From Pseudomonas sp. KBW05 (GTDB lineage: Bacteria > Pseudomonadota > Gammaproteobacteria > Pseudomonadales > Pseudomonadaceae): a stretch of DNA of 64,000 nucleotides. Position 1 is the stretch's first letter, and each line of letters begins with the position of its first letter. Both the position numbers and the translations under genes were made by a program. The notes under the pieces were generated by a model. That model did not search any database. It was not told where the DNA came from and saw only the letters and a program-made list of their open reading frames with translations. This document shows positions 7,721 to 41,867 of this stretch, one piece after another. The stretch is taken from contig NZ_QAJM01000022.1 of NCBI RefSeq assembly GCF_003852405.1, positions 47,628 to 111,627 on the forward strand. Reading direction: 5' to 3'.

Positions 7721-10938
<3,218 letters not shown>

Positions 10939-11043
10939 GGGTTTGTCACTCAAATCCGCAGGTCAGTCGGCAAGCCGTCTTGAACAATCTTTGAAGAGCC
11001 TGCGGGGGCCACCGAAATTCGGGGCCGCCCGCAGGCCGCTCAG

Positions 11044-12180
11044 TCAGCGTCGCTTGGCCATCTCATTGATGAAACGGTCGAACAGCGGCGCTACGTCGTT
11101 CGGGCCCGGGCTGGCTTCAGGGTGGCCCTGGAAGCTGAACGCGCTCTTGTCAGTGCGCTCGATGCCTTGCAGGGATCCGTCGAACAGCGACTTGTGAATT
11201 GCGCGGACGTTGCCCGGCAAGGTCGCTTCATCCACCGCAAAACCGTGGTTCTGGCTGGTGATCATCACAACGCCAGTGTCCAGGTCCTGCACAGGGTGGT
11301 TGGCACCGTGATGGCCGTGACCCATTTTCAGGGTCTTGGCGCCGGAGGCCAGGGCCAGCAGTTGGTGACCGAGGCAGATACCGAATACCGGGATCTCGGT
11401 CTCCAGCACTTCTTTGATCGCCTGGATGGCGTAGTCGCACGGCTCCGGGTCACCTGGGCCGTTGGACAGGAACACGCCGTCCGGTTGCAGGGCGAGCACG
11501 TCGCTGGCAGGGGTTTGCGCCGGCACCACGGTCACGCGGCAACCGCGCTCGACCAGCATGCGCAGGATGTTGTACTTGACGCCGTAGTCGTAGGCCACAA
11601 CGTGGTATGGCAACTCGGCAGCTTCGATGGTCGCGTGGCTGTCGGTCTTCAAGTCCCAGACAGTGGAGCGCCACTCGTACGATTCCTTGGTGCTGACGAC
11701 TTTCGCCAGGTCCATGCCTTTCAGGCCAGGGAAGCCCTGCGCTGCAGCAATCGCCGCGGCTTCGGAAATGTTGTCACCAACCATGATGCAGCCGTTCTGC
11801 GAGCCTTTTTCACGCAGGATGCGTGTCAGGCGGCGCGTATCGATACCGGCGATCGCCACAACGTTGTTGGCTTTCAGGTAATCGGACAGCGACATCGTGT
11901 TACGCCAGTTGCTTGCAACCAGTGGCAGGTCACGAATCACCAGGCCGGCCGACCAGACACGATCAGACTCGATGTCTTCCGGTGTAGTACCGGTGTTGCC
12001 GATGTGCGGATAGGTCAGGGTAACGATCTGTTGGGCGTAGGAAGGATCGGTAAGGATTTCCTGATAGCCGGTCATGGCGGTGTTAAACACCACCTCTCCA
12101 ACGGTCTGACCGTCGGCTCCAATGGCTTCGCCGCGAAAAATGCTGCCATCAGCAAGGGCGAGTATGGCTGGCTTAGTCAA
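11044..12180 (-). CDS. carA: Carbamoyl-phosphate synthase small subunit
   Basis: CarA is the glutaminase subunit that hydrolyses glutamine and passes ammonia to CarB. The 378-residue protein has the N-terminal CPSase_sm domain ([17 protein letters not shown]) and a C-terminal class I glutamine amidotransferase domain. The latter has the nucleophile elbow GICLGHQ and the His/Glu pair in [10 protein letters not shown]. The start is TTG, supported by GGGAGG 5 nt upstream. It is separated from carB by about 105 bp and lies behind a leader containing a T-tailed hairpin (12226-12263). Confidence 0.97.
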
Positions 12181-27926: not shown

Positions 27927-28323
27927 GGGGCCGTTTAGGATTCGACGCCGGTTGCGAAACTTTAGGTGCATGCCGAGTTGGTAACAGAACTCGTAAATCC
28001 ACTGTTGCAACTTCTTATAGTTGCCAATGACGAAAACTACGGCCAGGAATTCGCTATCGCTGCGTAAGCAGCCTTAGACCTGAGCTTCTGGTACCTTCGG
28101 GTCCAGCAATCACCAGGGGATGTCTGTAAACCCAAAGTGATTGTCATATAGAACAGAATCGCCGTGCAGTACGTTGTGGACGAAGCGGCTAAAACTTACA
28201 CAACTCGCCCAAAGCACCCTGCCCTTCGGGTCGCTGAGGGTTAACTTAATAGAAACGGCTACGCATGTAGTACCGACAGCGGAGTACTGGCGGACGGGGG
28301 TTCAAATCCCCCCGGCTCCACCA
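27927..28323 (+). ncRNA. ssrA: Transfer-messenger RNA (tmRNA)
   Basis: tmRNA rescues stalled ribosomes with SmpB. The 397-nt gene begins GGGGCCGTTTAGGATTCGAC and ends with a tRNA-like T-arm (GGTTCAAATCC) and CCGGCTCC-ACCA, which pairs with the 5' end. The tag reading frame at 28023-28067 encodes ANDENYGQEFAIAA and stops with TAA, starting from a GCC resume codon. The gene is intact, but its 3' end is the integration site of the downstream island. The last bases are therefore supplied by the island copy. Confidence 0.96.
28310..28323 (+). repeat. Putative attL (tmRNA 3' end)
   Basis: CCCCGGCTCCACCA at the end of ssrA recurs as CCCCGGCCCACCA (one base shorter) at 41840-41852. This is where tyrosine integrases of this class usually recombine. 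The repeat is short and imperfect, so core limits are uncertain. Confidence 0.6.
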
Positions 28324-28334
28324 CTTCATCATCT

Positions 28335-28360
28335 AAAGACGTCCACGGACGTCTTTTTTT
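28335..28360 (+). terminator. Rho-independent terminator after ssrA
   Basis: A 10-bp stem AAAGACGTCC/GGACGTCTTT with a 2-nt loop is followed by seven Ts just after the tmRNA. It would lie on the island side of attL. Confidence 0.88.
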
Positions 28361-28449
28361 GTGTCTGAATTCCAGCGAAAACAAGGGCTTATGGTCTAGG
28401 AGCGTCCATTAACGTCCGTCATCATCCACGATTTCGTGTGTTCCAAGTG

Positions 28450-28504
28450 GTATTCCAAGCCCTCACCTTCTATTTTTTGGAATACATAAACAGCATTGGA
28501 ATAC
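28450..28504. repeat. Three copies of GTATTCCAA/TTGGAATAC (left end)
   Basis: GTATTCCAA at 28450-28458 and its complement TTGGAATAC at 28477-28485 and 28496-28504 lie immediately before the integrase start. Two more copies lie at the right end of the island. They look like arm-type integrase binding sites that could also repress int. Confidence 0.6.
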
Positions 28505-28507
28505 ACC

Positions 28508-29763
28508 ATGGGGGCCCAAGCCACGCTCCTTTCAGACGTAAAAGTGAAAGCCGCGAAGCCAGAGGAAAAGGACTACATCCTCACGGACGGCAACGGACTT
28601 CAGATGCGAGCGAGAATCAATGTCTCCAAGCTATGGAATTTTAACTACATCCAGCCCGTGACGAAAAAACGGATAAACATAAGATTGGGTACCTTTCCTG
28701 AAGTCAGCCTGGCGCAAGCCCGCAAGAGAACCGTTGATGCGAGAGAGCTCATTGCGCAGAGGCTGGATCCCAAAGAGAAACGCGACGCGGAGCGGCACGC
28801 GAAAAGAGCAGCCACAGAACACACTTTCGAAAATATCTCGACAGCATGGTTCGAGCTCAAAAAGAATTCAGTCACCCCAGCGTACGCCGAAGATATTTGG
28901 CGCTCTCTTACCCTTCACGTTTTCCCTGATCTGGCCGCCACCCCGATCTCTGCAATCACTGCCCCAAAAGTAATAAATTTGCTTCGCCCACTCGAGACGA
29001 AAGGCAGTCTCGAAACCGTTAAGCGCCTGACCCAACTCCTCAACGAAATCATGACCTATGGTGTCAACTCGGGATTGGTTCACGCGAATCCGCTCAGTGG
29101 AATCCGCGCCGTCTTCAAAAAGCCAAAAAGAAAAATATGGCCGCCCTAGCGCCCGACGAGCTGAAAGAGCTAATAGTCGCAATTGCTAATGCCAGCATAA
29201 AAAGAACTACGCGATGCCTAATTGAGTGGCAGCTTCACACCATGACCCGGCCAGCCGAGGCGGCCACATCCCGCTGGGCTGATATCGACTTCGACAAGAA
29301 GATCTGGACTATACCGGCGGAGCGGATGAAGAAACGTCGGATACATATCATTCCACTCACTGAGCAAGCCCTAGCACTCTTGGAAGCCATCAAGCCCTAC
29401 AGTGGACATCGTGAATATGTGTTCCCTGCAGACCGAGACCCTCGTACCCACTGCAACAGCCAGACCGCCAACATGGCACTGAAGCGGATGGGGTTTGAAG
29501 GGCGCCTAGTAAGCCACGGCCTAAGATCAATGGAGAGCACCATCCTCAATGAATACGGTTGGGATCCTGAATTGATCGAGGTAGCGCTTGCACACGTAGA
29601 CAAAGACGAAGTGCGAAGCGCCTATAACCGGGCGGACGACATTGAGCGCAGACGACCGATGATGGCTTGGTGGAGTGGCTATATTCAGGAAGCCGCTACG
29701 GGAAACCTATCAATAGCAGCGACCAACGATACGCAGGATAGGAAGGTCGTTTCGATACGCTAG
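28508..29763 (+). pseudogene. P4-type tyrosine integrase, frameshifted
   Basis: Two overlapping reading frames (28508-29149 and 29137-29763) together make one integrase of about 418 residues. The first part has the DUF4102 N-terminus (LLSDVKVKAAKP..., YILTDGNGLQMR, RLGTFPEVSLAQAR) and the SAM-like core-binding domain. The second has the catalytic domain with Arg in TRPAEA, HGLRS, LAHVD and Tyr in AYNRADD. The frames would join if one A were added in the run AAAAAGAAAAAT near 29130. All catalytic residues are intact, so the lesion is recent, a sequencing error, or a slippery site. Confidence 0.88.
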
Positions 29764-30216
29764 TCAGGAAGCGACTACATGGAGGCGGTATGGATACACG
29801 TTACCAGGCAAATCCGGCACATTCTCAATAGTGCGCGCTTACCTCTGGGAGTGCCGGATACTAACCGGAACAGGGTCGTACAGTGTGTTGGCGCCGACAC
29901 CGAATTGACCCGGTTGCCGAGTTGTCACCTGACCCAGCCTGTTCCTCGCGAGCAATTGCCTTTGCTGAATTTGTGCAGATTGGAGGTAGGCTCAGTCAGT
30001 CTTGCGTCAGCTCGTGGGTTAATTCGGCCTCAACCCTTACAGTTTGGAGAGCTCGCTTGAATCGAAGGTACCTCGGACGACCACTGGCAATCCACGGCCA
30101 GCAGCAGATCCGCACTTTGACTCACCTTATAAAATCATTCGCCGATTTAGCAGTGGTAGCGAAAGTCATTGTTTGGCCTGCAGCTTTGAGGGCTTCAGCA
30201 GCCATATCGACGGCCA
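29764..30216. other. 453-bp space without a convincing gene
   Basis: Short open frames exist on the plus strand (for example 29779-30060 and 29883-30323), but neither shows recognisable domains, a ribosome-binding site or family-like sequence. The second runs into the DUF4420-like gene in antisense. The stretch around 29880-29945 (TGTTGGCGCCGACACC, AATTGACCCGG) reminds me of insertion-sequence termini and may be a remnant, but I cannot name one. Confidence 0.4.
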
Positions 30217-31131
30217 TTAATGAAACGGCTCAGATTGCAACGCTGAAAGATCCACCTGATACTCCAGATGCACTACACCCGCTGGCAAAACACCACCGAC
30301 AAAGCTCTCAGGTGTCACCTTAGGAAAGTATTCATCGACTAAATAGACATTGGCCTCCAACACATTGAAGGTTTCTTTCCTAGCCGAACACCCAACCTCC
30401 AGTCCGCAACGAGCCAACGAATCCTCCAGCAAGGCGCTTTGCACACCGGCTGTGACCAGACGCTTGCACACGGAATCAATCGACTCGCCCTGCAATGACG
30501 GTTCGAAGCGGTAGTGCACGAGGCTCAGCGGCTGCCCCGAATTAAGGGCGAGCTGGAATTGCCCGGCGATATGAACCCTCGAATCATAGCGGCTGATGGT
30601 GGACTTGATCTCAAAGCTTTCTGTAGGGGTCTGAATGTCCACTGTTCCACCAGAAGGCCCGCGCCAATCGAACTTTATACCCAAGCTGACCAGCCGTTCG
30701 ATCGCGAGCACCTCCGCGAGCGTGTCGTAACTTGTCCTGTTGACCAAGGCATTTCCTAGCAGGTGCCGCCAACGTTCCCACCATACCAATGGGTCTGCAA
30801 GAAGGGCCTCCCGTGGCGTCTCGTCGGCGCCAGGCGCAACCATATGCTCGCAAATCACTCCGAACTCATTACGAAGCCATTCTGTAGAAGACTCAAGCCT
30901 CAAAAAATGCCGCGTTTGTCCAGCAATGACACGTTTCACCGTCCTGAGTCGTGCGCCTGCAAATCCTTCAGATAGGGCCAAATCGGTCTGCAGCTCAACC
31001 GCTACGCCGAATGTTTCACCTTCTCTGAACACCCATGCTGGGCAAGTTGTTGGGAGGCCTTCGATCGCCAGCATCCGCCCGCTTTTATCAAGGTTGGAGA
31101 ATCCACGGCGAATTTCCAGAAGCACATTCAT
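30217..31131 (-). CDS. PD-(D/E)XK motif protein, DUF4420-like
   Basis: The 304-residue protein carries a PD-(D/E)XK nuclease core. Glu145 lies in LAIERLV, Asp165 in GTVDIQ and Glu174-x-Lys176 in FEIKST. This matches the family known as PF14390 (DUF4420), found in operons with Z1 and GHKL ATPase genes. It is the last gene of the defence operon, and its ATG overlaps the preceding stop as ATGA. It is likely the, or one, nuclease effector of the Z1/GHKL module, separate from the EcoRII-like enzyme. Family assignment is from memory; the nuclease motif is visible. Confidence 0.8.
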   Translation of the reverse strand: MNVLLEIRRGFSNLDKSGRMLAIEGLPTTCPAWVFREGETFGVAVELQTDLALSEGFAGARLRTVKRVIAGQTRHFLRLESSTEWLRNEFGVICEHMVAPGADETPREALLADPLVWWERWRHLLGNALVNRTSYDTLAEVLAIERLVSLGIKFDWRGPSGGTVDIQTPTESFEIKSTISRYDSRVHIAGQFQLALNSGQPLSLVHYRFEPSLQGESIDSVCKRLVTAGVQSALLEDSLARCGLEVGCSARKETFNVLEANVYLVDEYFPKVTPESFVGGVLPAGVVHLEYQVDLSALQSEPFH

Positions 31132-31829
31132 TTCAAACTCATCTCTATTTCAGGCCGGGCGTCATGACACCCAGCTTCAGTGAACAACGCTTTGGCATAT
31201 CCAGCTACTCCACCCATGAACAGAGAGGGCTCCACAACCAGAATTTTTGCCGTATTCAGTTTCATGATCGCCCGGAACTGATCCTGCGAGGGTTTTCGCA
31301 ACTTGCGCTCGGTAAACAGTGACCGCGTCAGCTCGACACGGAAGCCCGCTCGGCCGGGCCTTTCTACCAGCTGCGCAATGGTGTCGGTTGTAACCGTTCG
31401 AAGAATGGCCCGTGTTTCTTCCTCCGAGCCTTGCCAGGCCAGGTGAACCATCCACCACATTGCACGAAGCCAGATACGACTTCGCCCTTTCCAGAACCGG
31501 GCTGCCGCGCTTTTTCCCCATCGAGCCGCCACCAGGTCCGGTAGCAGCTTAACGGAAAGAAAACGCCATAGGCCATCGTCCGCGGCGCTACGTTGATTCA
31601 TGCCGTGAACTGCAAGGATTCGATACAGCGCCAGTCCAACCTCAATGTCATACGTCCCGGCACTGGACTGTTGCTCCGGCCTTTGGGAGTAGAGTGAGAT
31701 TTCAGCAAGGATCGACGCTCGAAGATCCTGATGCTCTTTGGTAAGTCCGGAAGGCGTGAAGTCGCCGCTGGACTCCATATCATCGTAACGGCGACGAGAG
31801 AGCGATAGGTTAAGAGAGGGGAGTATCAT
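31128..31829 (-). CDS. Defence-operon protein, possibly DUF6339
   Basis: The 233-residue protein is rich in Trp/Arg in its middle (KGRSRIWLRAMWWMVHLAW) and predicted mostly helical, with no nuclease or NTPase motif that I can see. Position and size resemble a family I recall as DUF6339 from Z1-containing operons, but I am not certain. Stop and start overlaps of 4 bp (ATGA) on both sides couple it to the genes before and after, so it is probably made in stoichiometric amounts as a complex subunit. Confidence 0.75.
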   Translation of the reverse strand: MILPSLNLSLSRRRYDDMESSGDFTPSGLTKEHQDLRASILAEISLYSQRPEQQSSAGTYDIEVGLALYRILAVHGMNQRSAADDGLWRFLSVKLLPDLVAARWGKSAAARFWKGRSRIWLRAMWWMVHLAWQGSEEETRAILRTVTTDTIAQLVERPGRAGFRVELTRSLFTERKLRKPSQDQFRAIMKLNTAKILVVEPSLFMGGVAGYAKALFTEAGCHDARPEIEMSLK

Positions 31830-32797
31830 TCAATACTTACCTTTTCGCGAAGCCGGCGGTCGAACCAGCGCTGTGTAGATACAAACAATGTGCTCAACGA
31901 GGAGGTGTCCAATTGGCCCAAGCGTATGAAGGCCGCAACAGCATCAGCGATGCTGGCGAAGTCCGCAGACTGTCCGTAGTGATTCACAATGGAATTGAAG
32001 TCAGGCCCCAGGTCTGATTTGACCTGATGCACTAGGAGCGCGATCCAGGATGAAACAATTTGTCTCATCAACGGGCTTTGTCGCCCCGGCTCGGAAGCCC
32101 GCTCGCGCAACTGGCTGAAGAGTTCATGCTCTCGGTTCAGGATCAGCGCTACGTAGTCACTCTGAAAAGCCTCATCCCGTGGATCACTCCACGAAGTTCT
32201 CAGTTCCCAGAGTGGACCATCATTCCCCAGCGACTCCTCCAGTACAGGGAATAGTGATCCATTGCCGTCGATAACGATCTCGACAGATTGCAGCAACTGT
32301 CCCAATCGAGAGCCCTGCAGGCTGGCAAGCCCAGGTGAGACATCACCAGTCCCGGGCTGCCCCAGGAATAATTGGATGGATACATTTCCTCTACCCCGCA
32401 AGCTGCCGGAGGGTAAATGCAGCACAAGTTCAGGGAAAGCCTCATCATCACTGAAATTTCTGGTTGTCAGTACGCGCGGCTGACCAGTCTTGCGCCAGCA
32501 AGAGTCTGCAGAAGTCCATTCCAGAGTTAGCAACAGCTCACCGTCATTCGCAACCACTCCCCGATCCTCGAATAGACGTTTGAGCACTTCAGTATTGGAA
32601 AGGTTACAGCGGATGAGCAGGTCATGAGTATCAGCGCTCCAGTCGCTGTTGGAACCCAGCGAGAATTGACAATGCGCTGTGCTTCTAGCGCCGGGGTCAT
32701 CGCCGTTCGCTGAGGAGAACGTATAGTCTGCTTTTAGTTGAACATCATGAGGTAGGTTGGCTGGCAACATCCGATACATCTGAAGTGGTCTGTTCAC
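31826..32797 (-). CDS. Uncharacterised defence-operon protein
   Basis: The 323-residue protein has no motif I recognise. The first 230 residues look beta-rich (alternating hydrophobics such as GELLLTLEW, NVSIQLFLG, SVEIVIDG) and the last 90 helical (SSWIALLVHQVKSDLG, ASIADAVAAFIRLGQ). This could mean an adaptor with a beta domain and a helical tail. It is translationally coupled by ATGA overlaps to the GHKL ATPase gene upstream and the DUF6339-like gene downstream, so it is most likely a dedicated subunit of the same complex. Confidence 0.8.
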   Translation of the reverse strand: MNRPLQMYRMLPANLPHDVQLKADYTFSSANGDDPGARSTAHCQFSLGSNSDWSADTHDLLIRCNLSNTEVLKRLFEDRGVVANDGELLLTLEWTSADSCWRKTGQPRVLTTRNFSDDEAFPELVLHLPSGSLRGRGNVSIQLFLGQPGTGDVSPGLASLQGSRLGQLLQSVEIVIDGNGSLFPVLEESLGNDGPLWELRTSWSDPRDEAFQSDYVALILNREHELFSQLRERASEPGRQSPLMRQIVSSWIALLVHQVKSDLGPDFNSIVNHYGQSADFASIADAVAAFIRLGQLDTSSLSTLFVSTQRWFDRRLREKVSIE

Positions 32798-34851
32798 TGC
32801 TCACCTCCGCTGCTATCAACCAACCTCACGCCCAAAATCGGACGTAGCGAACGGCCGGAGCTGGAAACGACCTTAATCATCACTTCACCAGTGAGAGTAT
32901 CGGATCCCTCAAGGAATGCTGATCTGATGAGCAACGTATCGGTATATGAACAGGTACGACCGGTAAGTGTGGGATCGGTACTGTTGATCAGCCTGTATGG
33001 GAAAGGCCCCAAACCACTGTCGGTCCAGACAGCCGCTGATATAGGCCCCCCCTCCGAATCCACTTCGACATAAATCTCGCGTGACGACTCGGGATCCTCT
33101 GCGCCCCATCGAAGCGTCCATCCGACACACAGTCCATCGGCCAGGTGATTGATGTCATGCAAATCCAGCGTGGGTGATGGATTTGAGGAGCGCGCGCGCG
33201 CCGCACCTCCGCCTCCGCCTCCAGTTCCAGTTCCAGTGTGGTGAGGCTTCGACGGATTACCAGCCTTGCCACCTCGTCCATCGAGCCCGAAGCCACGACC
33301 GGGTAGAACCAGATCAGCCAGATTTCGGGCCATACGCATCGATGGCTTGACGGTCGAGTTGGCAGAGGCAGGAAGGCCAAAATCCCGCAAAAACCGCCCA
33401 CAGGTGTTACGGATATTGAGGATGATGCGCTTGCCACTTATGTCGACCCATGCAGAGTGATCTGCCCGTTCACAACTCCTGAGGTAACCTTCAAGTGATT
33501 GCCCAGAACTACTGCCGGTGTCGTTTTCTGCATCCGGCTGCCCTGTCTCGGCCTTGGGTACAAACAACGCGATCATGTATCTTCCATCTGCAGAGCCTGC
33601 AAATCCGCCGGCCCATCCCCGACTCTCGATGCTATCGTCCCAGCAGATACTCATACCGGGCTTGCGCATGAACGTGACAATTGGCCGATGAGGTGCAGTA
33701 TTCTCCTCGTAACCGAATACACAAAGACTTGGGCTCTGTTTGTTGTGAGGCGCCTTCATCCCTAATTGGTCTGACGTCAGCATGGCTGCCACAACCACAC
33801 CCGCACTACCGGTACGAAGCGTCTCGTTGCGTGGTGAAATGACCTTGCTACGGACGTCTTGGACACCATTCAAGTTGAGGTAGTCGGTACTTCTTGTCTC
33901 ATCGGACATCGCCCGGTTATAGAGCGATTGAGTGACGCGAAACACAGGGAGCATCTGACCGCTCTTGATGGCCTTGCCGTTTACCGTCGCGGCCAACCAC
34001 GGCCCGCCCACAAAATACGGATTATCAAGACGCACGCAGAACCAGCGCTGCAACGCCACCTGAATGTACGACTCATAGCTGTGATACCACCAGGGGCTGA
34101 CGCCATCCTCCTGCTCAAACTCGGGTATCAGGTCATCTTTGAGGAAAGGAATTGTTATGGATGTGCCTGTCTGATCGCCCCTGAACGGTTGAATATCAAG
34201 GTGTCCCAGAACCTCATGTATTTCTGCCGAATCAGTAAGAGGTCGCAGCTTTTCCTGCGCCCCCCACCACGCAATACCGGTTCTACTATCGGACTGTAAT
34301 CGATCAGGCCGCGTCTCATCTTCGACGATGCTGGATACCAGTCGCTCCTCGTACCCGCTTTCGGTCCTTATACGGCTGTAGTAGACGACAATGCCCGCTC
34401 CCATTCGGAAGTAGCACGTCTTGCCCAGCCCCCACGAGCCGCCAGCGCCGTCATCGCCACGGGTTCGACCGATCTCGAATACCAACTTCAGGAGATTTCC
34501 GTGTGTGCTTCCACTTTTGATCGAATCGAAATCCAGCGGTCCAGTCAGCCCCTCTGTAAAGCAGTCGCGAATCTCAAGCAGCTTCGATGCTCCGGGGTAC
34601 CGATCATGCAGGTTCGCAAGGTTAAGCCCCTCCCCGAAATTTGAGGCGATTGCATGGGCTGAATGCTCTCGCAAAATGAAATCAATCTGCACAGCTGATC
34701 CTGCCTTACCACTCGAGCCGGCATCGAGCCCGTTCTGCACGGACTCTCTAACCAGAAGATCAAGCCTAGGCATCTCTTCGTTCTGTATGGCTCGAAGTAG
34801 AAAAGCACCTGACTCTTGCATTGGCCGCAGTGGCAGATCGTAGTACTTCAT
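32794..34851 (-). CDS. GHKL (Hsp90/MutL/MORC-like) ATPase of the defence operon
   Basis: The 685-residue protein begins with a GHKL fold. The N-box is ESVQNGLDA (Glu36, Asn40), the G1 motif EIRDCFTEG has Asp96, and the G2 loop GGSWGLGKT is at 138-145. This ATPase class, with MutL and MORC, is linked to restriction operons by Iyer, Abhiman and Aravind (2008). A Gly/Arg/Ser-rich linker near residues 535-560 is encoded by simple repeats and separates a beta-rich C-terminal domain. It starts 4 bp after the Z1 helicase stop and overlaps the next gene by 4 bp. It probably acts as an ATP-dependent clamp coordinating the helicase and nuclease. Confidence 0.87.
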   Translation of the reverse strand: MKYYDLPLRPMQESGAFLLRAIQNEEMPRLDLLVRESVQNGLDAGSSGKAGSAVQIDFILREHSAHAIASNFGEGLNLANLHDRYPGASKLLEIRDCFTEGLTGPLDFDSIKSGSTHGNLLKLVFEIGRTRGDDGAGGSWGLGKTCYFRMGAGIVVYYSRIRTESGYEERLVSSIVEDETRPDRLQSDSRTGIAWWGAQEKLRPLTDSAEIHEVLGHLDIQPFRGDQTGTSITIPFLKDDLIPEFEQEDGVSPWWYHSYESYIQVALQRWFCVRLDNPYFVGGPWLAATVNGKAIKSGQMLPVFRVTQSLYNRAMSDETRSTDYLNLNGVQDVRSKVISPRNETLRTGSAGVVVAAMLTSDQLGMKAPHNKQSPSLCVFGYEENTAPHRPIVTFMRKPGMSICWDDSIESRGWAGGFAGSADGRYMIALFVPKAETGQPDAENDTGSSSGQSLEGYLRSCERADHSAWVDISGKRIILNIRNTCGRFLRDFGLPASANSTVKPSMRMARNLADLVLPGRGFGLDGRGGKAGNPSKPHHTGTGTGGGGGGAARARSSNPSPTLDLHDINHLADGLCVGWTLRWGAEDPESSREIYVEVDSEGGPISAAVWTDSGLGPFPYRLINSTDPTLTGRTCSYTDTLLIRSAFLEGSDTLTGEVMIKVVSSSGRSLRPILGVRLVDSSGGEQ

Positions 34852-34855
34852 CAGG

Positions 34856-37666
34856 TCAGGCCTCGGCTCCGGTATCCGGCAGATCGTCCGTGGTGATAGT
34901 CAGAGACTCCGGGATTTTCACAGTCAGGTGGGAGACATAACCGTCATTTTTCTTTCGGGCGCCGGGCAACATCAAACTCATCCCGATAATATCGGCTTGA
35001 GCGCGTAACGGACCACGACCTCTTCCACCCTCCTTGATCAGAGCAAATTCCTTGCCCGCCCCGCTCGTTCTTTCTATTCGATACAACAGCAGTTGTGGAA
35101 TCTCGGCGACTCCACCATGCGCTCGGCCTTTTTCCACCAGGTCATTGTTGAGCGGTGAGTCCTTGTCGACGCCATGCTCGTTTGCATCTGCAAGCAAATC
35201 CCAAGGATCTCGCAGAACACCTATCGATACCCCGGCATCAGAACGCTCAGGCAACATTCTGGTACGTGTAACCGCGCCAACTTCCCCACCGGGTACTTTC
35301 CACGACCCACTCTTCATGCTCGCATTACCAGCCACTACGACGTTCCACATTTCATAGCCGGCATCCTGGGCATGCTCCTCCAACCAAGTAAGAAAGGGCT
35401 TCATGTCCGAAAAGAACTGGCTACCAGGATGGAACTGGAACTCGCGAAGAAAGCTCATGATTTTTTGAACAGAAACTTCCCGCCATACGAAGCTGTTGCC
35501 ATTACCACGAGCACCGTCTTGAGCCAGATCTTTCAGGAATTCATCTGCAAGGATCAAATTACTTTCAAGGATCGACTTCGCATTCGGCCCGTCGTGAAAA
35601 AGCGTTGTTTGTCTGTTTATTCCCGAGAAGTCGAACTTGGCAGTGACGGTCTGCTGCATCTTCTTCGCACCTGTCGGCCTCAACCAGGATATCCGAGGAT
35701 GCCTTTGTATCCGCGGGCCGCACTCCGTTGGCCGAGCGCCTCCACGCATATATCGTTCGAGATCATCTCGGAGATCTTCTTCCGCAATCGTCATGAACTC
35801 GTACTTCAGACGTGTTTCGTCCGGCATCCATATTCGAGGCAATAGCTCGTAGTCGCGGCGGTAACCGAACCACCTTCCCATTTGCATGAGAGAGTCGGCT
35901 TGAGCCGAAGCACGAAGGAAAAACGTACTGACGAGATTTTCGAGGGTCAGCCCCCTGGAAAGGGTCCCGCCTCCAATGACAATAAAGGCGGAAGCGAAAT
36001 CCAGCTTGTCCGAGGCTTGAGGATAGAAAAGGCGACGAACTTCGTACTCGTCACTCACGCCATTATTCGCGCAGTTATCTACGCAGATATGGATGCCGCG
36101 GTGATATGTGTGCTCTTGCCGCTCATCAAGTTGGATCGCGGTAATCTTCGCCAATAACGGACTGACTTCCGGAAATATGGTATCGAAATCAGGCAAACCA
36201 ACGAGCTTGTCAAGACGACCGTAACCAGGAAAACGCTGGGCAAAACTGTCCGGATCGAGATCGGACGTGAGTGTGTCCCAAACAGACTTGCATTCAACCC
36301 GGAGGCCCGCCAGATCCTGAACGCTCATCTCGGCGAGATTCTCCAAGAATTCTTTTACGGCAACCTCCATGTTCGCATGGTGCAGCTGCTTGGAGCTGGT
36401 ATGGATCAGCATGGTGGCCGGTTTGCGGAGCCCCATTACTCGATTCGTGGCCATGCTGCATAGAAACCACAGCAGACTTTGTTTCAAGGTTGCAGGCAAC
36501 TGCGATGATTCACCATTATGCAGATCACCAAGCAAGGCACGGTCATCTGCAGGGACGTCTCTGATGATACCCAGCGGCTCTCGACCCGCTTCGTCGTGAC
36601 CGAAGATCTGTACGGGCCCGAAATGCTCGTCAGCCTGTTCCAACGCAACAATGAAGTCTTCGGGATAAAGCGTTTTGCCCGGCCCTTCATTCAGAAAGTT
36701 GGCAGCAGGTGTCGCGGTATAGGCGACGTAGTTAACACTTTGCAGCGGTAGGTTGATGAGCTTGATGATCAGGCGATTGATCTTCGACCTTTCTTCCTTT
36801 GATATCTGACCAGTGTTGATACCCGCCTGATCAGCTTCGTCGTCGATGACCACCAGTCGCATCTGGCTCATTGCAATCTTGTGACTTTGAATCCAGTCGA
36901 TGAGGTGCTTGAGGCGAGCAGGGTTCTTCAGGCAAACGATGAGATGTCGGTCTGGTCGGTCCAGCTCAAATCGCATGTTTTCAGCCCTGTTGCCGTGATG
37001 ACTATCCCGAGACGGATGCTCGATCGATCTCCAGCTGAGATTGCCAGAGCGAAAAAGATCACTGACGAGACGCTTGCCAGTCTGCACTCGCAGGTTTTCA
37101 AGCGTTCCGGTAAGAACCACGAACAGGTTCCACCGATGATCCGCTGCCATTGATATCAGACCTGCCATGTTTGCGGTCTTACCCGACTGCACATGTCCCA
37201 CAACCAGCCCCTTGACGGGCTGTCTTTCCGTTGTGTCCATCCTTAAGTATCGAAGAACTCTCAACGCAGCGTTCTCGATATTCTGGATGGCACCTTCTTT
37301 CCATTCCTGAGCTTCCAGATGGGATCGGTACAGCTGCCAGGAACTGTGAGAGTCACTAGGGACCTGAATATCAGGTTCTGCTTCTTCTGCCCCGATGACT
37401 ACAAGCGGGCGCGCCGCTTGGAATGAGCGCTGTTCTGCCTTTCGCTTCGCATTGATTATTTCATGCCAGCGTTCAACCCTGGACTCAGCGGTTTTTCCGA
37501 GGGACGGCCAACCTGTCAGGTCCTCCTGGTCCAGGAACCAATCGTTCAGATGCTCAGCATTTTTGCCGAGCGTATAAAGCTCTTCCCAGCTTTTATCTCT
37601 CTGGCGCCAGCGCTCGATAAAGCTTCGGCAAAGGTCAAAGACGGGGTCAATACTGATATCGGACAT
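34856..37666 (-). CDS. Z1-domain SF2 helicase/endonuclease
   Basis: The 936-residue protein is a superfamily 2 ATPase with an inserted Z1 domain (PF10593). Motif I is GHVQSGKT (157-164), motif II is VVIDDEADQ, motif III is YTATP and motif VI is QMGRWFGYR. A GGGTLSRGLTLEN segment near the last two is typical of Z1 proteins. These proteins accompany GHKL ATPases and methylases in bacterial operons. I started at ATG 37666, which has GGAAG 4 nt upstream; a TTG 33 bp earlier is the alternative. It is the first gene of the tightly packed second half of the operon. Confidence 0.87.
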   Translation of the reverse strand: MSDISIDPVFDLCRSFIERWRQRDKSWEELYTLGKNAEHLNDWFLDQEDLTGWPSLGKTAESRVERWHEIINAKRKAEQRSFQAARPLVVIGAEEAEPDIQVPSDSHSSWQLYRSHLEAQEWKEGAIQNIENAALRVLRYLRMDTTERQPVKGLVVGHVQSGKTANMAGLISMAADHRWNLFVVLTGTLENLRVQTGKRLVSDLFRSGNLSWRSIEHPSRDSHHGNRAENMRFELDRPDRHLIVCLKNPARLKHLIDWIQSHKIAMSQMRLVVIDDEADQAGINTGQISKEERSKINRLIIKLINLPLQSVNYVAYTATPAANFLNEGPGKTLYPEDFIVALEQADEHFGPVQIFGHDEAGREPLGIIRDVPADDRALLGDLHNGESSQLPATLKQSLLWFLCSMATNRVMGLRKPATMLIHTSSKQLHHANMEVAVKEFLENLAEMSVQDLAGLRVECKSVWDTLTSDLDPDSFAQRFPGYGRLDKLVGLPDFDTIFPEVSPLLAKITAIQLDERQEHTYHRGIHICVDNCANNGVSDEYEVRRLFYPQASDKLDFASAFIVIGGGTLSRGLTLENLVSTFFLRASAQADSLMQMGRWFGYRRDYELLPRIWMPDETRLKYEFMTIAEEDLRDDLERYMRGGARPTECGPRIQRHPRISWLRPTGAKKMQQTVTAKFDFSGINRQTTLFHDGPNAKSILESNLILADEFLKDLAQDGARGNGNSFVWREVSVQKIMSFLREFQFHPGSQFFSDMKPFLTWLEEHAQDAGYEMWNVVVAGNASMKSGSWKVPGGEVGAVTRTRMLPERSDAGVSIGVLRDPWDLLADANEHGVDKDSPLNNDLVEKGRAHGGVAEIPQLLLYRIERTSGAGKEFALIKEGGRGRGPLRAQADIIGMSLMLPGARKKNDGYVSHLTVKIPESLTITTDDLPDTGAEA

Positions 37667-37970
37667 TCGCTTCCATATTCTCGTATTCGTCAGGAACAAA
37701 GCTTTAGAGGTTGCGCTTTGAGTGATTCAAAATAGTGGCACACGGCCCACAGCAGTTACCAGCCTCAACCTGTCGGCTTTGTAAACGCTGATTCACCCCC
37801 GTCGACAGCGCAAAACGCAAAAACAGCACCCGGGTGCCTCAGATCGTTTATCGGCCTGCAAAGCTGGATATGGAGCTTTCTTACAAACCGGCGATGTCCC
37901 GCCGGAATGAACCAACATGCGGATTGCGCGCAGTTCCTGCTGAGCAGTTCGTTCCTCAGCACGACATCAA
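37667..37970. other. Space between the EcoRII-like gene and the Z1 gene
   Basis: This 304-bp stretch separates the two halves of the defence operon. A minus-strand frame at 37765-38022 overlaps the end of the nuclease gene and has no family-like features. No strong terminator is visible. It probably contains a promoter for the Z1-GHKL module, but I cannot pick one with confidence. Confidence 0.45.
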
Positions 37971-39203
37971 TTATCGAACTGCACCCAACAGCGAGATGAA
38001 CTGCCCAAACGACATCAACCACTCCTGCTGTTCCGCCTTGTAGGTCGCCTGAATAGGCAACGGCACTATCAGCTGCACGCCCTTCTCTTCCATCTGCGTG
38101 GTCTGATCCACCGAAACGGAAGGCTCCATCGTGATCAGGTGCTTCTCCTTCACTCGTGTGGCTTCCGCGAGCACCTGCCTCCAGCGTTCCTTACAGGTAG
38201 TCTTGGCTCCGAGTATTCGCAGCTGTGACTCGGGATAGTCCGAATCGAGATATGCAACACGTCCGGGAAACAGAAAGTCGGGCTTTTGTTTTCCTTCCGT
38301 GCGCACGCCGCGTTCGTATGCCACGCCATTCAACCGGAGAACTTCTTCGATGTGATTTTCAAAGGCATGACCTACACGAGATTTGCGGCGGTTCTGAATG
38401 CTGAGCGATACGCGTATGAAAGCGTCCACATCTTCGCCAAAACCTTCCAACAGCCTCTGCTTGACGATATGCCGTTCGAGTATGCGGAAGATATGCTCTT
38501 CGTCATCCATCCATTGAAGCAACGTCTCATCCGGAGACTCGATGGCGGATAGGTCGTTGCGAAGCGTCCGAGCGAAAGCAGAAAATTCTCGGGTGGACGG
38601 AAAAGTGGCTCCGAATTTCTCAATCAATAGTTCGCGTAGAACTTCGTCGCCTGACTTTTGTACAACCAGCTCAATTCCATATCGGGCAAGCATCAGTCGG
38701 ACTGGGGTAGCGATCGTTGATGTGTCGACCGCGACCTGAGTCAGCCGGTTTCCAACCTTGGTGCCTACGGCTCCGAAGATGCTGCGCAACTGAACTTCTG
38801 TGTGACTGTCCTGAGGACAGAGCATGATAAGCAGGGTGCCTTCATGGGTCAGGGCGACCAACATGAAATCGGTCTCCTGGATCCGCTCAGTGACCGAGTT
38901 GCGCTTGTAGTAAAGACGCCACTCAGGCCCACGATCGTCGTCCTCGTAACGACAGTCATACCAGGACACCTCGTCTTCGACCAGAACGGGCTCATCGCTG
39001 TAATCGTCGAGGTAGACCATTGTTGCCTGCAGGTGGGTCTTGCTGCCGTCTTCCGGACGGGGCAAGTGCCCACCCAGACCCGCCTTGATCAATCCACCGA
39101 TTTCGTGCTGATTGGAAACTGTTGGATTGGCATCCACAGCCGTCAGATACTTCAGCGCCGCCGCAACAAAAACGTCCTTTAAATGTTCGAACAACTGCTT
39201 CAC
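37971..39203 (-). CDS. EcoRII-like type II restriction endonuclease
   Basis: The 410-residue protein has an EcoRII C-terminal catalytic domain. NRRKSRVG leads into Glu282, then KPDFLFP with Asp309, then LGAKTTCKERWRQ with Lys334. Asp-to-Lys spacing is 25, as in EcoRII. The N-terminal 190 residues contain an HEIGGLIKAG segment like the effector-binding domain of EcoRII but are more diverged. EcoRII cuts CCWGG and needs two sites. Start is GTG with a weak ribosome-binding site (AGATGG). It follows vsr by 82 bp and the matching methyltransferase is upstream, so it should cut unmethylated CCWGG or a close variant. Confidence 0.9.
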   Translation of the reverse strand: MKQLFEHLKDVFVAAALKYLTAVDANPTVSNQHEIGGLIKAGLGGHLPRPEDGSKTHLQATMVYLDDYSDEPVLVEDEVSWYDCRYEDDDRGPEWRLYYKRNSVTERIQETDFMLVALTHEGTLLIMLCPQDSHTEVQLRSIFGAVGTKVGNRLTQVAVDTSTIATPVRLMLARYGIELVVQKSGDEVLRELLIEKFGATFPSTREFSAFARTLRNDLSAIESPDETLLQWMDDEEHIFRILERHIVKQRLLEGFGEDVDAFIRVSLSIQNRRKSRVGHAFENHIEEVLRLNGVAYERGVRTEGKQKPDFLFPGRVAYLDSDYPESQLRILGAKTTCKERWRQVLAEATRVKEKHLITMEPSVSVDQTTQMEEKGVQLIVPLPIQATYKAEQQEWLMSFGQFISLLGAVR

Positions 39204-39285
39204 CCATCTGTAAAATGTGGAAATTCCCTGCTGCTTGATTTCTGCGTGCGAGACGCAGCTTCAGCGCCCGCTTCGCAGCAGGCAG

Positions 39286-39747
39286 CTATGTTTTCTTTGG
39301 TTTTGGAGGGGTTTCAGGCCAGAACATACAGGCTGCATTACCAGTAATGAATTCGTCGATCTGCGCGACTACATCCATCGCATGCTTGAGGCCACATTCC
39401 CACACCACCAGAACCCGCCAGCCGGATGCCTGCAGCGCATCAATATTAATGCCATCTCGCACTACGTTCTTTTCGAATTTTTCTGCCCAGAACTCTTTGC
39501 GAGTGCCCGGTGTTGTTGCGTAGGCGCAGGCGGGGTGGCGATGCCAGAAGCACCCGTGAACAAAAACAACGCACTTATATTTCTGCAGAACGAGATCTGG
39601 CCGACCGGGCAGGTCTTCGCGGTGTAACCGAAAGCGGAAACCTCGGGCATGGAGAAGCTTTCGGACTATGAGCTCTGGCTTCGTATTTTTGCCTTGGATA
39701 CCGGACATCATCCGGGATCTGACTTCCGGGCTCACAACATCGATCAC
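39286..39747 (-). CDS. vsr: Very short patch repair endonuclease Vsr
   Basis: Vsr nicks 5' of T in T:G mismatches that arise when 5-methylcytosine deaminates, protecting Dcm-type sites. The 153-residue protein shows RSRMMSGIQGKNTKPE, the catalytic Asp in LPGRPDLV, the zinc and active-site motif FVHGCFWHRHPAC, and ERD/VRDGINIDALQASGWRVLVVWECGL. Start is GTG, preceded by GGTGG. It lies 227 bp downstream of the cytosine methyltransferase, the usual partner order. Confidence 0.95.
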   Translation of the reverse strand: MIDVVSPEVRSRMMSGIQGKNTKPELIVRKLLHARGFRFRLHREDLPGRPDLVLQKYKCVVFVHGCFWHRHPACAYATTPGTRKEFWAEKFEKNVVRDGINIDALQASGWRVLVVWECGLKHAMDVVAQIDEFITGNAACMFWPETPPKPKKT

Positions 39748-39974
39748 AGGGCGCCACCGCTGCTAACGAGATAGCCCCTTAACATTGGGATGGCACTGCT
39801 GATGGCCGGCTATTCCTTGAAATATCGCCTCGATCAGCGTGAAACCCCGTAGACCTGACCGAACTCGCAGCCAGACCCGCCCGAACTCGTCCCAACATCA
39901 GAAGCTTACCTCCCTGTCAGATATCGCCAGGCATGCGCCTCAACGTTAACTGGGAAAGTAACATCAAGTGACTA

Positions 39975-41408
39975 TCAATTACTAAGCATGATTTCCAGCT
40001 GTGGCCGATGCCCAGCCTCGGTCTTGGACTTGGCTTCCAAAATTCGGCCTTTCATCAGTTTTGCCACCGCCTCGAATACCGGAACTGCGACAGAGTTGCC
40101 GAATTGACGGTAAGCCTGTGTGTCAGAAACGGGGATCACGAATTTGCTCTCTCCCGGCTTATCGAACCCCATCAGCCGCGCGCATTCATGAGGTGTCAGA
40201 CGCCGAGGACGGTTCATCTGGTTCAGTTCGCCGTAGAAATCCAGTGCGTCAATGAAACCGCGATCCACGAGGATTTCGGAACCGTCCTTGTGATAACGAG
40301 CCGATAGTGTACGTGCCACTCCATCAGGCTTGGTCAAACCGAATCCAAATCCATTTCCTTTCTCTCGATGCTTCTGAGCGTACTTGTATAGGTACTCCCA
40401 GAGTTTCGGAGTGAGGATGTACTTGCTGTCGACGTTGAAGTCCAGAAGATCCCCAAAACTTGGTCGCTGGGCCGGCTGATGTTTGACAATATCTCGCAGG
40501 GTGAAGCCCTGATGCACATTCAGATCACGGCGAAAGCCGACAAGCACGATCCGCTCGCGGTGTTGAGGCAGAAAAGCCGTCGCGTCGATGACCTTCGGGT
40601 CACTACCCTTCGGTGCATTGACGTCTGCAACCTCATAGCCGAGTTCATCGAGTGCTTCGCAGATGATTCTAAAGGTATTGCCCTTATCATGGCTCTTCAG
40701 ATTTTTCACATTTTCCAGCAGGAATGCGGCCGGACGCTTCGCAGCGATGATTCGTGCAACATCAAAAAACAGTGTCCCTTGAGTCTCACATTCAAAGCCG
40801 TGCTTGCGCCCCAAGGAGTTCTTCTTGGAGACGCCGGCAAGAGAAAACGGCTGGCAAGGGAACCCAGCAAGCAGCACGTCATGATCCGGAATTGCCCGGT
40901 CGATATGTCTGTAAGCCTCGTCCTCGCTGATGTCGAGCTTGTCCGAGAGCGTGACAGTACGAATGTCGAGATTGAACCGGTGCCGAGCAGGATCGCAGTA
41001 ATGGTTCGCCTTGTATGTTCGAACGGCATACTTGTTCCACTCGGATGTGAATAGGCACTCGCCACCTATAGCCTCGAAGCCTTTACGGATGCCACCGATG
41101 CCTGCGAAGAGATCAATGAATGTGAAAGAGCGCTGACCTGCCACCTTTTGCGGTAGCAGCGCCTGCAAACGGTTGAAATCGACATAAGACAGTTTTGGGG
41201 AAGCCTTGCCCTTGACCCAGCGATTGATCGTTTCCCGACACCAGTGCCCCGGACTCGCTTCGTTCAGCACCTCGGCCAGATAGCCTTGATCGTAGATCTC
41301 CAGCAATTGCTGCAGCAAAGCCAGGTCGCTGCCGGCGAAATTACTAGGCCGCTCAGCGATACTGCTGACATCGCCAAAGTGCTGAGGTGTGCTTTCTAAC
41401 GTATCCAT
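39975..41408 (-). CDS. dcm: DNA (cytosine-5-)-methyltransferase, EcoRII/Dcm type
   Basis: The enzyme methylates cytosine C5, probably in CCWGG, protecting DNA from the EcoRII-like nuclease. The 477-residue protein has motif [15 protein letters not shown], the catalytic Cys185 in motif [16 protein letters not shown] (VI), QHRER (VIII), a target recognition region, and [10 protein letters not shown] (X). The N-terminal 90 residues with [15 protein letters not shown] resemble the HTH extension of M.EcoRII/Dcm. The frame is open upstream, but ATG 41408 with AGAAGG gives the M.EcoRII length. M.EcoRII represses its own transcription, and a palindrome lies in this promoter. Confidence 0.95.
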
Positions 41409-41432
41409 TGAGATGCCTTCTGGGTCAAATCT

Positions 41433-41447
41433 GTGACGAGCTGTCAC
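41433..41447. promoter_or_regulatory. Palindrome in the dcm promoter (candidate autoregulatory operator)
   Basis: GTGAC-GAGCT-GTCAC has perfect 5-bp arms. It lies between a possible -10 (TAGAAT, minus strand at 41449-41454) and the dcm ATG, so a bound protein would block transcription. Confidence 0.45.
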
Positions 41448-41538
41448 TATTCTATCCCTAGACCGCTCAAAAAAAAGCATTATTTGCCTACGCGGATACC
41501 CGCACGCGCTACATGTACCTGAAATCGCTTGATCAATA

Positions 41539-41554
41539 CTGTACATAAAGACAG
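41539..41554. promoter_or_regulatory. LexA-like box upstream of dcm
   Basis: CTGTACATAAAGACAG matches the LexA pattern CTGT-N8-ACAG, and by eye 13 of 16 bases of an idealised CTGTATATATATACAG. It lies 131 bp upstream of dcm. No plausible plus-strand gene follows, so it could serve the defence operon or be fortuitous. Confidence 0.4.
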
Positions 41555-41757
41555 CATCTGTTGACAGGATCTTTGATCGACCGCTGATGCAAAGGCCCTT
41601 CAACATTGGTGCGTTTCCGCCCAAGGGCCGCCGTATGAACAAGCGCCAGCAGTTGCTACCAGAAGCCGTTGGTGCACTCAAAAGCGAGATTCGAAGTACA
41701 GTTATGGGATCAAGCTTTCGTCGACTTAAAGGCGGGAATCTAAGAGATTCGCGGCTG

Positions 41758-41778
41758 GTATTCCAAAAGGTATTCCAA
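41758..41778 (+). repeat. Two copies of GTATTCCAA (right end)
   Basis: Direct copies at 41758-41766 and 41770-41778 mirror the three copies by the integrase start. They lie about 62 bp inside the putative attR. Confidence 0.6.
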
Positions 41779-41839
41779 TAAAAAGTTTAACCGAAAATAA
41801 TCAATAAAAATCAACACCTTAACCAAGCTGTTCAGATTA

Positions 41840-41852
41840 CCCCGGCCCACCA
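41840..41852 (+). repeat. Putative attR (degenerate tmRNA 3' end)
   Basis: CCCCGGCCCACCA matches the tmRNA end CCCCGGCTCCACCA with one base missing. Backbone genes and a terminator follow. The match is short, and the boundary could shift a few bases. Confidence 0.5.
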
Positions 41853-41867
41853 ATTCGAAACATCGAC

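Follow-up and report, generated by a model that had tools for sequence, protein, structure and literature searches.

An ATPase–nuclease module on a Pseudomonas genomic island and the exchange of methylase partners among its relatives

Several restriction systems predicted earlier bring together, in one neighbourhood, a GHKL ATPase, a superfamily 2 (SF2) helicase with a C-terminal QxxRxFG-type domain, a restriction endonuclease (RE)-fold nuclease, a cytosine methylase and Vsr. The same combination is found in a 64,000-nucleotide stretch of Pseudomonas sp. KBW05 (contig NZ_QAJM01000022.1, here the window), where a five-gene module stands beside a Dcm-Vsr-EcoRII cassette. Comparison with related loci shows that relatives of this module exchange their putative DNA-marking partner, the methylase. 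The module itself, for whose kind an antiviral role has already been predicted, would be of an ATP-powered, DNA-cutting type and comprises:

34856..37699, minus strand, gene in the same-strand cluster
32794..34851, minus strand, A, a GHKL ATPase, MutL/paraMORC-like
31826..32797, minus strand, B subunit
31128..31829, minus strand, E, a DUF6339-like, all-helical subunit
30217..31131, minus strand, D, a PD-(D/E)XK nuclease (Pfam DUF4420, 1.2e-21)

The ATP-site residues of protein A are kept in 52/52 relatives. At residue 98, beside the invariant Asp96 of that site, the window protein has Phe, against Gly in 24 and Asn in 21 of the 52. Protein B has a predicted model with an N-terminal beta-sandwich and C-terminal helices, while the catalytic residues of protein D, likely the module's cutter, are kept in 79-80 of 80.

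Among named systems, the module falls below the equivalog cut-offs for MZA (MzaC, NF041933, 215 vs 1500 bits; MzaD, NF041934, 48.6 vs 420 bits), from which it differs by another GHKL protein and by having B and E instead. A Pfam search of the eight window proteins, i.e., those of module and cassette, returned no match to AIPR (MzaE), a domain matched in three sampled class II loci, nor to PLD or B3, the nuclease and domain that make up the R protein of CglI and NgoAVII as described in a passage of PMC4267653; as far as that passage goes, these systems also differ from the module in having no GHKL, B, E or DUF4420 protein. The logic proposed for DISARM in part of PMC9142583 is similar, namely that DNA methylation represses an SF2 ATPase effector, which needs no set sequence, and that the methylase motif varies. 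However, the likeness is one of logic only: effector proteins in common were not found, and neither DrmA nor DrmB was among the PADLOC matches of the window proteins (for Dcm, the best 25 of 56). The module may at best be a distant relative of PADLOC's PDC-M33, since the matches are partial and weak, of protein A to PDC-M33A (1e-9) and of a single E relative to PDC-M33C (4.8e-4), and B is unmatched. The Corynebacterium diphtheriae BH8 island CDBH8_0988-0994 can be compared by description alone, and the relevant passage of PMC5379612 gives no mechanism.

The cassette beside the module consists of:

39975..41681, minus strand, Dcm cytosine-C5 methylase (NCBIfam PRK10458, 760 bits, cut-off 710), the true start probably near 41408
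39286..39747, minus strand, Vsr mismatch endonuclease (TIGR00632, Pfam Vsr, 1cw0 alignment)
37971..39203, minus strand, EcoRII-like restriction endonuclease with an EcoRII-C catalytic half

In six Pseudomonas loci Dcm takes the place of the usual methylase of ~550 residues, none of which was found within the available stretch. The two types share 24-28% identity, their target-recognition stretches are plainly different, and the Vsr motif differs between Dcm-type and ~550-type loci; in the window, Vsr has the insertion of one residue and the YATTP motif that normally accompany ~550-residue methylases. Class I modules have at least three additional methylase families as partners. If specificity sat inside the module, some part of it would be expected to change with the methylase, yet sliding scans of the five module proteins found no methylase-tracking segment. 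When residues common to Dcm-type vs ~550-type loci were counted, one of the subclades gave 4 vs 3 (labels swapped), the second 25 vs 20, and no position recurred between them; only protein E was lopsided (5 vs 0). As neither scans nor counts clearly picked out a module part that follows the methylase, we favour the reading that the module is not adapted to any single methylated motif; should this be wrong, protein E is the first place to look.

The alternative that survives best, possible but doubtful, is that the module reads one fixed sequence, e.g., CCWGG, so that any methylase marking it serves, and that Dcm and the ~550-residue enzymes are unrelated but share this target. This would account for methylase exchange without module change and for Vsr occurring with both methylase types, E. 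coli Vsr being an enzyme that works in a Dcm context. The ~550-residue methylases score best with the DrmMII model, and DISARM is reported, in a part of PMC12926258, to methylate CCWGG; this last point is weakened by Serratia DISARM, for which a section of PMC9142583 gives other motifs. Against a fixed site stand the divergence of the two methylases and of their target-recognition stretches, the differing Vsr motifs and the further methylase families. For the window enzymes, CCWGG is a putative site assigned by subfamily only.

Less likely is that the two are independent neighbours in a common defence island, the cassette being an ordinary Dcm-Vsr-EcoRII system and the module having no relation to it. 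Defence genes do cluster, each unit also exists alone, and L029 and L031 fit, as there the EcoRII cassette comes on top of an inner methylase that the module retains. However, in the six Dcm loci of Pseudomonas Dcm substitutes for the module's usual methylase rather than adding to it. More improbable still is a methylase that acts as recognition subunit, scanning DNA and recruiting the module to unmethylated sites in the manner of type I, type III or BREX systems; a near-constant methylase partner and five proteins without a tracking segment would suit it, but the exchanging methylases have only the catalytic core in common, with no common added domain seen, and a common docking surface is unlikely at their level of identity.

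The original prediction, of an EcoRII-type unit beside a helicase, GHKL and nuclease set, was borne out by matches to Dcm, Vsr, EcoRII-C, GHKL and the DUF4420 PD-(D/E)XK nuclease. It had called the EcoRII-type unit complete, which holds for the catalytic domain, EcoRII-C, where the lysine-rich stretch of the active site is present, and for the Dcm-type methylase (solved relatives 3me5, 1e-184, and 3lx6, 1e-178). The N-terminal half is unlike EcoRII by sequence: solved EcoRII aligns from residue 192 on only, and no Pfam match to the N-terminal effector (B3) domain was found at sequence level. The expected co-occurrence held in part, with the cassette beside the module in 5 Pseudomonas genomes vs 1.47 expected (p 0.010; adjacent every time), together again in L029, L031 and L092, and in print in C. 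diphtheriae BH8 (in the passage of PMC5379612). Yet the majority of modules are without EcoRII and the majority of Pseudomonas EcoRII cassettes are without the module, while L148 carries Dcm-Vsr and the module without EcoRII. The original interpretation is partly supported; the proposed two-tier coupling, in which ends cut by EcoRII would be processed by the helicase-GHKL-nuclease module, draws on the adjacency and is disfavoured by this separate occurrence, making it the least probable reading of all.

A Mrr_cat-type nuclease gene (L148 4274-5260) adjoins the L148 locus; Mrr_cat-type nucleases are a family known to cut methylated DNA. The EcoRII-like enzyme is 80% identical to one of two neighbouring L120 copies (8685-11339; 42% mutual identity). 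Small stand-alone proteins (L117 409-846, L119 11938-12291, L126 6758-7141) resemble its N-terminal residues ~12-128 at 29-35% identity and are perhaps separate effector or inhibitor domains. The window genome (G000) has three more cytosine methylase genes, on contigs C1, C13 and C17, and Dcm is therefore not its sole source of 5-methylcytosine.

We infer an island of about 28324-41855, with the integrase and all eight genes as its cargo, inserted at a transfer-messenger RNA (tmRNA) gene:

27927..28323, plus strand, tmRNA gene (ARAGORN), the insertion site
28449..28458, plus strand, 10-mer GGTATTCCAA, close to the left island end
28496..29149, plus strand, tyrosine integrase, first piece, arm-binding and core-binding domains (Pfam Arm-DNA-bind_3, Phage_int_M)
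29137..29763, plus strand, tyrosine integrase, second piece, catalytic domain in a different frame (Pfam Phage_integrase, 5.6e-29)
41757..41778, plus strand, GGTATTCCAA twice, close to the right island end

GGTATTCCAA occurs three times across the window vs 0.04 expected (0/100 shuffles reach 3), and a tmRNA-end-like CCCCGGCCCACCA, spotted by eye, follows the right-end pair at about 41840. GC content is 0.50-0.57 from about 28 to 43 kb vs 0.59-0.66 elsewhere in the window. As the integrase (28496-29763) is in two overlapping frames, island self-mobility may be lost, unless this is an assembly error. The tmRNA site of L012 is also occupied, by a related module, a ~550-residue methylase and Vsr without EcoRII, and the island flanks match L012 at 90.7% over 1822 bp and 71.5% over 534 bp.

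For this family of modules, partner exchange poses the question of how they distinguish self from non-self.
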